The notes below the pieces were generated by a model, which saw only the letters and a list, made by a program, of their open reading frames with translations, ran no database searches and was not told the origin of the DNA. A stretch of DNA of 35,568 nucleotides from Patescibacteria group bacterium (GTDB taxonomy: Bacteria; Patescibacteriota; Minisyncoccia; UBA6257). The first letter of the stretch is position 1. Each line of letters begins with the position of its first letter. This document shows, piece after piece, positions 19,588 through 20,561 of the stretch. The DNA lies in NCBI GenBank assembly GCA_030917555.1, contig JAUPUN010000015.1, positions 1-35,568 of the forward strand, read 5' to 3'. A program made the translations under genes and the position numbers.

Positions 19588-20199
19588 ATGTTTAATTTGA
19601 TTCCTCCTCTTCTTCTTCTGATAGGTCTAGCAGGTTTAATTTTACTTTTACACCATCAAGAAAATATTATTTCTTCAGAGGAAGAATCAAAAACCTTTAC
19701 CACAAAAGAAAAGAAGGGTAAGAAGAAGTGGTTTGTAAATTCTGCGCAACTTGAAAATGCCAAAGCGAAGATAAAACATTTCTTTGAAAAAATTTTGATA
19801 AGATTAAGAATAATTGTTTTGAGAATGGATAGAATTTTACTGCATTCCCTCGAAACTTTAAGAGGTAAAAACCAATTAGAGAATCTAGAGGATCAAGAAA
19901 AAAGAAAAGGTTTGTTTAGAAAAAATAAGATTAACCTTAAACATTCTACTTTAGATTCTCAATTAGAAAAGATGGATTTAAGAGAGCAGGAGGAAAAACT
20001 ATTATTAAAAATTTTGCACGACGAAAGTAATTTTGATGATTTAGTAAATTTAGCTAGGTTATATCTTTTTGAAAAGGATTTTCCTTCTGCGAGGTGGGCC
20101 TTAATTCAAGCCTATCATTTAGAAGATAATAATAAGATTATCGAAGGTTTATTTTTAGAGCTGGAGGAGAAAGATTCTTCAGCCTTTCCATCGGAATAG
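19588..20199 (+). CDS. Hypothetical membrane-anchored, charged/TPR-like protein
   Basis: N-terminal TM, charged linker, C-terminal LARLYLFEKDFPSARWALIQAYHLE helical-repeat-like segment. Confidence 0.55.
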   Translation: MFNLIPPLLLLIGLAGLILLLHHQENIISSEEESKTFTTKEKKGKKKWFVNSAQLENAKAKIKHFFEKILIRLRIIVLRMDRILLHSLETLRGKNQLENLEDQEKRKGLFRKNKINLKHSTLDSQLEKMDLREQEEKLLLKILHDESNFDDLVNLARLYLFEKDFPSARWALIQAYHLEDNNKIIEGLFLELEEKDSSAFPSE

Positions 20200-20281
20200 C
20201 TTAAGAAAAGATCTGATCATTATTCATTTTGAGCCGAGATAGCTCAATGGTAGAGTAACTGTTTTGCGGAGCGAAGCGTAG

Positions 20282-20386
20282 CCCCCACACCAAGCCGCGC
20301 CACCTTAGCTCAATGGTAGAGCAACTGTTTTGTAAACAGTAGGTTCTCGGTTCAAATCCGGGAGGTGGCTCTGATTGGTGTGGGGG
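20282..20386. repeat. Perfect 12-bp inverted repeat CCCCCACACCAA (20282-20293) / TTGGTGTGGGGG (20375-20386) flanking the nested tRNA-Thr
   Basis: Read directly; the arms are exact reverse complements. Confidence 0.95.
20299..20370 (+). tRNA. tRNA-Thr(TGT)
   Basis: GCCACCT/AGGTGGC acceptor, ACTGT-TTTGTAA-ACAGT anticodon arm, TTCAAAT T-loop. Confidence 0.93.
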
Positions 20387-20474
20387 TAAAGTTGCGGGTT
20401 TAAATTCCCCTCTTGGCTCCTTGATAAGAGTAAAGGTACAATTGTGGACTGGAAGAAGAGAGTTAGTTTTTGAA

Positions 20475-20561
20475 GGGCAGGTGGCGGAGTAGACAAACGC
20501 ACGAGACTGTAAATCTCGCGGCCTTAGGCCTTCGTAGGTGCAAATCCTACCCTGCCCACCA
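20475..20561 (+). tRNA. tRNA-Tyr(GTA), class II variable arm, encoded CCA
   Basis: GGGCAGG/CCTGCCC acceptor, CGAGA-CTGTAAA-TCTCG anticodon arm, long variable arm, ACCA 3' end. Confidence 0.93.

Follow-up and report, generated by a model that had tools for sequence, protein, structure and literature searches.

Nested tRNA-Thr genes in Patescibacteria and a palindromic element that may have placed them

Layout of the nested locus

The window, that is, the whole stretch of 35,568 nucleotides analysed, is contig C13 of the genome G000, which has a size of 408-kb. At positions 20233-20418 it harbors an intact tRNA-Thr(UGU) gene between two inverted arms, all of it contained inside an interrupted tRNA-Thr-like gene (Table 1). 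A sequence-only reading of this DNA had already described a tRNA gene nested in an interrupted one, and all its coordinates were confirmed, together with the intact state of the inner tRNA-Thr(TGT), the perfect 12-bp inverted repeat (12/12 positions of the arms are paired) and the outer acceptor stem, which consists of 7/7 standard pairs, one of them G-U, and reaches 9 bp when the flanking GA/TC are counted. The chance expectation of a perfect 12-bp inverted repeat in such a stretch is estimated at ~6e-4.

Table 1. Features of the nested locus, in window positions
Feature	Position	Strand	Remark
Outer tRNA-Thr, 5' part: acceptor GCCGAGA (20233-20239), D-arm, anticodon 5' strand to TTTTG	20233-20266	+	
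Short left segment CGGAGCGAAGCGTAG, linking outer 5' part to arm	20267-20281	+	
Palindrome left arm CCCCCACACCAA	20282-20293	+	
Inner tRNA-Thr(UGU), intact, acceptor GCCACCT/AGGTGGC	20299-20371	+	ARAGORN; Rfam 72.4 bits
Palindrome right arm TTGGTGTGGGGG	20375-20386	+	
TAAA after GGGG	20387-20390	+	Also in nearly all dispersed palindrome copies and most nested loci
Outer tRNA-Thr, 3' part: decayed T-arm (20394-20410), acceptor TCTTGGC (20411-20417), U73	20391-20418	+	

The RNA of 20231-20420 is predicted to fold with -84.6 kcal/mol (z -6.2; 0/200 shuffles as good), and the predicted fold shows the outer acceptor, the D-arm, the arm helix and the inner cloverleaf, with the left segment and 20260-20267 forming a small hairpin. 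A near-identical left segment, CGGAGCGAAGCGCAG, is found in G115, and its length in relatives is about 3 to 45 nt. The TAAA could be the end of an inserted element or a remnant of the outer anticodon loop.

As had been noticed, the outer 5' part is nearly identical to the inner tRNA, with 26/27 identities over TAGCTCAATGGTAGAG(C/T)AACTGTTTTG. The remainder of the outer gene is damaged: its T-loop reads TTTAAAT, so that the loss of C56 reported before is real, its T-stem has one C-C mismatch and the anticodon 3' strand is absent. Because of these defects the window outer gene would not be a normal tRNA even if it were free of the insert. No tRNA was detected in it by Rfam (E<=5) or ARAGORN, even with the insert removed, nor did ARAGORN call it with introns allowed, all of which fits the earlier leaning towards a pseudogene. 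A random pseudogene is rejected, as many genomes repeat the architecture and keep its halves paired, and an assembly artefact is unlikely, given that independent assemblies show the nesting, as does a contig of 248 kb. A group I intron is also rejected, since positions 20150-20500 gave no match at E<=5 and there is too little sequence beyond the inner tRNA. The insert consists of the tRNA and the arms only; neither att repeats nor an ORF that fits an integrase were found in it.

Recurrence, stacked layers and the tRNA-Ile nest

An architecture-pattern scan of genome_contigs, covering 85,462 genomes, returned ten records, all of them from Patescibacteria (10/10) and all with a nested tRNA-Thr(UGU) (10/10), in Doudna-, Giovannoni-, Wolfe-, Buchanan-, Jorgensenbacteria and other groups. 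The arm sequence changes at almost every locus while complementarity is kept, with 97% of the arm positions pairing with their own partner versus 60% after swapping. A DNA search of 60 relatives revealed that G036 and G044 are also nested, with entirely different arm sequences; among the matches listed, nesting was found at 3/25 tRNA-Thr(UGU) loci. A strict pattern applied across the order (245 genomes) identified nests in G000, G036, G044, G115 and G179, and in G104 it found the arms CCCCCACACC/GGTGTGGGGG-TAAA between two genes, with no tRNA within. Pattern-free homology searches add G004, G149, G151, G178, G222, G223, G224 and G228, in which decay varies, and looser searches also yielded nests of Thr(CGU), Ile(UAU) and Gly(CCC). 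A relic of a 5' half lies upstream of tRNA-Thr(UGU) in 11/54 contexts and the reverse order in 0/54, some of these contexts having been picked for nesting. No published description of nested tRNAs, or of palindromic elements in Patescibacteria, was found in the literature searched. Only the innermost gene of a nest is reported by tRNA finders, which overlook the shells.

Nests can be stacked. L116 comprises four concentric tRNA-Thr genes, each layer with its own arm pair: the innermost (GCCGAGA) is intact, the second from inside (GCCACCC/GGGTGGC) is split in the anticodon arm, and the outer two (GCCAGCG/CGCTGGC and GCCAGAG/CTTCGGC) are split in the D-loop and keep the UGU anticodon intact. Remnants of additional layers are present in L111 and L117. 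A separate GC-rich hairpin (TCCGCC...GGACAGGC) interrupts the T-loop of the outer tRNA-Thr of L111. In L071 and G179:C34, an extra 3' tRNA half (GTCGGTTCGATTCTGAC-AAAAGGC) lies directly past the outer gene and is perhaps an older layer.

The insertion point is best seen in G151, where outer exon 2 retains the full anticodon strand TAAGGCGA, so that the insert falls between nt 35 and 36 (TTTTG^TAA); the Thr(CGU) gene of G178 has the same insert position (GTTTCG^TAAAGC). Three nt of the 3' anticodon strand are absent from the window and most others, and where they are absent the left arm is preceded by a matching or near-matching trinucleotide (CAG, CCG, TAG and so on), an arrangement that may stem from the insertion itself or from a later change.

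The window genome harbors a second nest (G000:C3:13254-13570; L062, minus strand), with a tRNA-Ile(UAU) within an interrupted tRNA-Ile whose anticodon is now GAT and whose D-loop has received two hairpins. The sisters G002 and G005 have tRNA-Ile(UAU) nests of the same kind. The GAT of the outer gene prompted the idea of an essential spliced tRNA-Ile(GAU) in the window genome, which was rejected. Relatives carry a plain Ile(GAU) elsewhere, usually beside Ala(UGC), and the nested outer gene of the sisters is Ile(UAU); moreover, the 16S match of the window genome is truncated, so that the assembly may simply lack its own Ile(GAU)/Ala(UGC) pair. Also on the minus strand of L062, at about 2165-2125, an orphan tRNA-Val-like 3' half (T-arm ACAGG..CCTGT, acceptor ATCGCCC) lies directly past an intact tRNA-Val(GAC).

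A dispersed palindrome with the same end motif

In the order, a dispersed palindromic element has GGTGNGGGG(G/A)TAAA as its right end. Matches to GGTGNGGGGNTAAA were found in 27/120 genomes, with up to 12 per genome, and few were obtained with a reversed-pattern control. When realigned, the dispersed copies form long palindromes whose inner stems vary and whose loops measure from 3 to over 100 nt, and the arms are perfect palindromes also in copies without a tRNA. Many copies have TAAA on either side, others TACA or TTTA on the left; the nested tRNA-Thr copies show no target-site duplication. Reading frames of at least 150 aa span 8/21 elements (e.g., NPHTK..FGVGVK). In-frame TAAA-tagged palindromes were observed in protein genes of L099 (1505-1567), L087 (1482-1514), L094 and L104, and the peptide YPHTKRALALEENDARYGVGVK, in a TatD-like frame, is an example of what such a palindrome encodes. 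The window genome has at least two more dispersed palindromes, on contig C10. A foldback that shares this end motif (CCCCCTCACTTGAAATGGAT...GGGGGTAAA), at about 888-968 of G000:C10 (L034, minus strand, 2425-2505), appears to sit inside a 16S rRNA gene match (C10:180-1147).

The nested tRNA-Gly(CCC) of G004 has the arms CCCCCACACC/GGTGCGGGG, and a tRNA-Ala(CGC) of G071 is enclosed by CCCCCACACCATA/TATGGTGTGGGGG, which ties the tRNA nests to the dispersed element. The AT-rich arms of the Ile nests and of the Thr nests in G151 and G178 are unrelated to it, which may mean that there are two or more palindrome families. Neither a linked transposase nor a tRNA-Thr unit standing free as a mobile copy, away from any tRNA, was found; Y1_Tnp is absent from G036, G044, G115, G179, G104 and G004, and PF01797 is present in the window genome, G023, G011 and G211. 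RAYT mobilisation as a general cause is unsupported, PF01797 being absent from most of the nested genomes tested.

Origin of the nests and comparison with known systems

Relatives had been pointed to as the place to look for an uninterrupted tRNA at the same locus, and most genomes of the window family do have a plain tRNA-Thr at the matching place; in the sisters G001, G007, G008 and G009 this tRNA-Thr(UGU) lies after a TPR-type gene and before tRNA-Tyr. For the sequence-only reading, relatives lacking any outer acceptor-stem complementarity would have counted against an interrupted outer tRNA; the opposite was found, and in many relatives the outer gene is better preserved than in the window. 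The plain genes at that place in the family have the acceptors GCCGAGG, GCCGACG or GCCGGAG, and the window outer acceptor, GCCGAGA, is of this family type; the inner GCCACCT type is found in no plain gene of the family. The nearest match of the window inner tRNA is in G143 (family f14; 94.5%), followed by f10 and f19, and 0 of its 14 closest matches come from its own family. This is a lead, not proof, that the inner tRNA may have been gained by horizontal transfer, because the sequences are short and a 73-nt tRNA is weak evidence. Within family f27, the outer type GCCGAAG is common to G036 and G224, with a close relic (GCTGAAG) in G228, and the inner genes are not of one type (GCCGGGA in G036 and G228, GCCTGAG in G224). 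The acceptor types of G004 are in the opposite order to those of the window, so that "outer = native" is not a simple rule; this order would be consistent with repeated rounds of insertion.

The nests are probably explained by the insertion of a foldback (MITE/RPE-like) element, bringing a replacement tRNA, into a resident tRNA gene. The proposed element is a long palindrome ending CCCC...GGGG-TAAA, whose loop would carry a complete tRNA-Thr(UGU). Its insertion would interrupt the resident tRNA-Thr(UGU) in the anticodon arm and destroy this gene, and the inserted unit would supply a working replacement tRNA in the same transcript, allowing the cell to survive. The inner tRNA would be released by ordinary RNase P and 3'-end processing and would keep its function, leaving the outer halves as a decaying fossil, and the stacked Russian dolls would arise because an intact tRNA-Thr remains at the locus, letting insertion recur. 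This supposes a one-step arrival of the tRNA as cargo, a mobile unit and a dead outer gene. The isoacceptor redundancy of inner and outer genes fits such a replacement; the search results for a free copy and for a linked transposase, both negative, speak against the model, as do the inconsistent target duplications. An insertion carrying its own tRNA had been among the options first put forward for the locus and is the best-supported reading of it, but its supposed target duplication does not stand: the 6-bp direct repeat TTGCGG is present, and relatives with the same left junction lack the right copy.

Were the replacement insertion real, a mobile element would disable a tRNA gene and replace it in one step, which would explain how it enters the single-copy essential tRNA genes of minimal genomes, and would leave behind a readable stack of older copies.

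It is unlikely that a cargo-free hairpin entered one of two tandem tRNA-Thr genes and that recombination or gene conversion later put the intact copy in its loop. Cargo-free hairpins do occur within tRNA D-loops, and one lies in the anticodon loop of the outer Thr(CGU) of G223; the arms of L005 partly copy a tRNA-Gly anticodon stem, which also agrees with this history. However, a second copy and two steps would be required each time, although similar geometry recurs in many genomes, and the window inner gene is of another type than the outer.

Decayed and fresh outer genes are found side by side among the nests. G228 has lost its outer 3' half, compared with G036, which belongs to the same genus (g34) and has the same arm and an inner tRNA 98.6% identical; the outers of G222 and G224 are decayed too. 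These cases and the defects of the window outer gene support a fossil outer, since they would be surprising if outers worked. Across 13 loci, on the other hand, the outer acceptor halves are paired at 86/91 positions when each is matched to its own partner (the mean for swapped partners is 4.84/7, and the observed pairing was reached in 0/20,000 permutations), T-stems are mostly 5/5, ARAGORN accepts 6/13 joined outers as tRNA-Thr(UGU), and structurally perfect outers are present in G036, L113, L112, L117 and G151. A purely neutral relic might lead one to expect fewer perfect outers, though these may be young; if all outers are dead, their number means that many insertions are recent. This preservation would also suit a functional outer gene, already among the options of the sequence-only reading, in which, after excision of the inner tRNA, the arms would hold the outer halves together to give a joined or two-piece (split) tRNA-Thr, and the ~12 bp arms beside the anticodon loop recall the pairing leaders of archaeal split tRNAs (PMC4390854). 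Such a function is nonetheless quite improbable: apart from the lost and decayed outers, nt 40-42 (anticodon 3' strand) are missing or displaced in most outers, the window included, the insert sites vary (anticodon loop, D-loop), the outer is redundant beside the inner copy in every case examined, and inspection of the exon borders showed no bulge-helix-bulge, the arms being continuous helices with a variable left spacer.

Very doubtful is a nested split-tRNA system in which the arms would clamp the outer halves after release of the inner tRNA and both tRNAs of the locus would be used, so that one transcript would give several tRNA-Thr molecules from concentric genes. The same strong doubt attaches to a structural cradle, a folded outer shell, not itself a tRNA, that would help the inner tRNA in its expression, processing or stability. 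The maintenance of arm complementarity under sequence change and the strong fold (z -6.2) would agree with it; against it, in most relatives this locus holds a plain tRNA-Thr, G228 retains its inner tRNA without the 3' shell, and the arms are perfect palindromes also in the dispersed tRNA-free copies. A scrambled tandem duplication, a further option of the sequence-only reading, leaves unexplained the complementary arms, their match to the dispersed palindromic element and the differing type of the inner tRNA.

Some integrative elements insert into tRNA genes and rebuild the end of the gene. As in those, the insertion considered here hits a tRNA gene and brings sequence that compensates the damage; unlike them, it places a complete replacement tRNA in the middle of the gene, it enters at the anticodon arm or D-loop, and it lacks an integrase and att repeats. 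Split and intron-containing tRNA genes are described in the archaea Nanoarchaeum and Caldivirga (PMC4390854), and they share with the nests the interruption of the anticodon loop and complementary sequences flanking the halves; in contrast, the present loci are bacterial, the halves lie in cis around a full tRNA, and D-loop insertions occur too. REP/RAYT systems are tetranucleotide-tagged hairpins dispersed in bacterial genomes (PMC3733652), a description that the present palindromes resemble, although their tag is TAAA, not GTAG or CGTC, and most nested genomes tested lack the Y1 transposase. Rickettsia palindromic elements (RPE) have been described (PMC10969869), and RPE/MITE-like elements are likewise short palindromes scattered over a reduced genome, some of them lying in frame within protein genes. 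The patescibacterial element also has many dispersed copies with conserved ends and in-frame insertions in protein genes (8/21), a resemblance for which no sequence relation to RPEs is claimed; it differs from them in sequence and phylum, its stems vary between copies, and some copies hold a whole tRNA gene in the loop.
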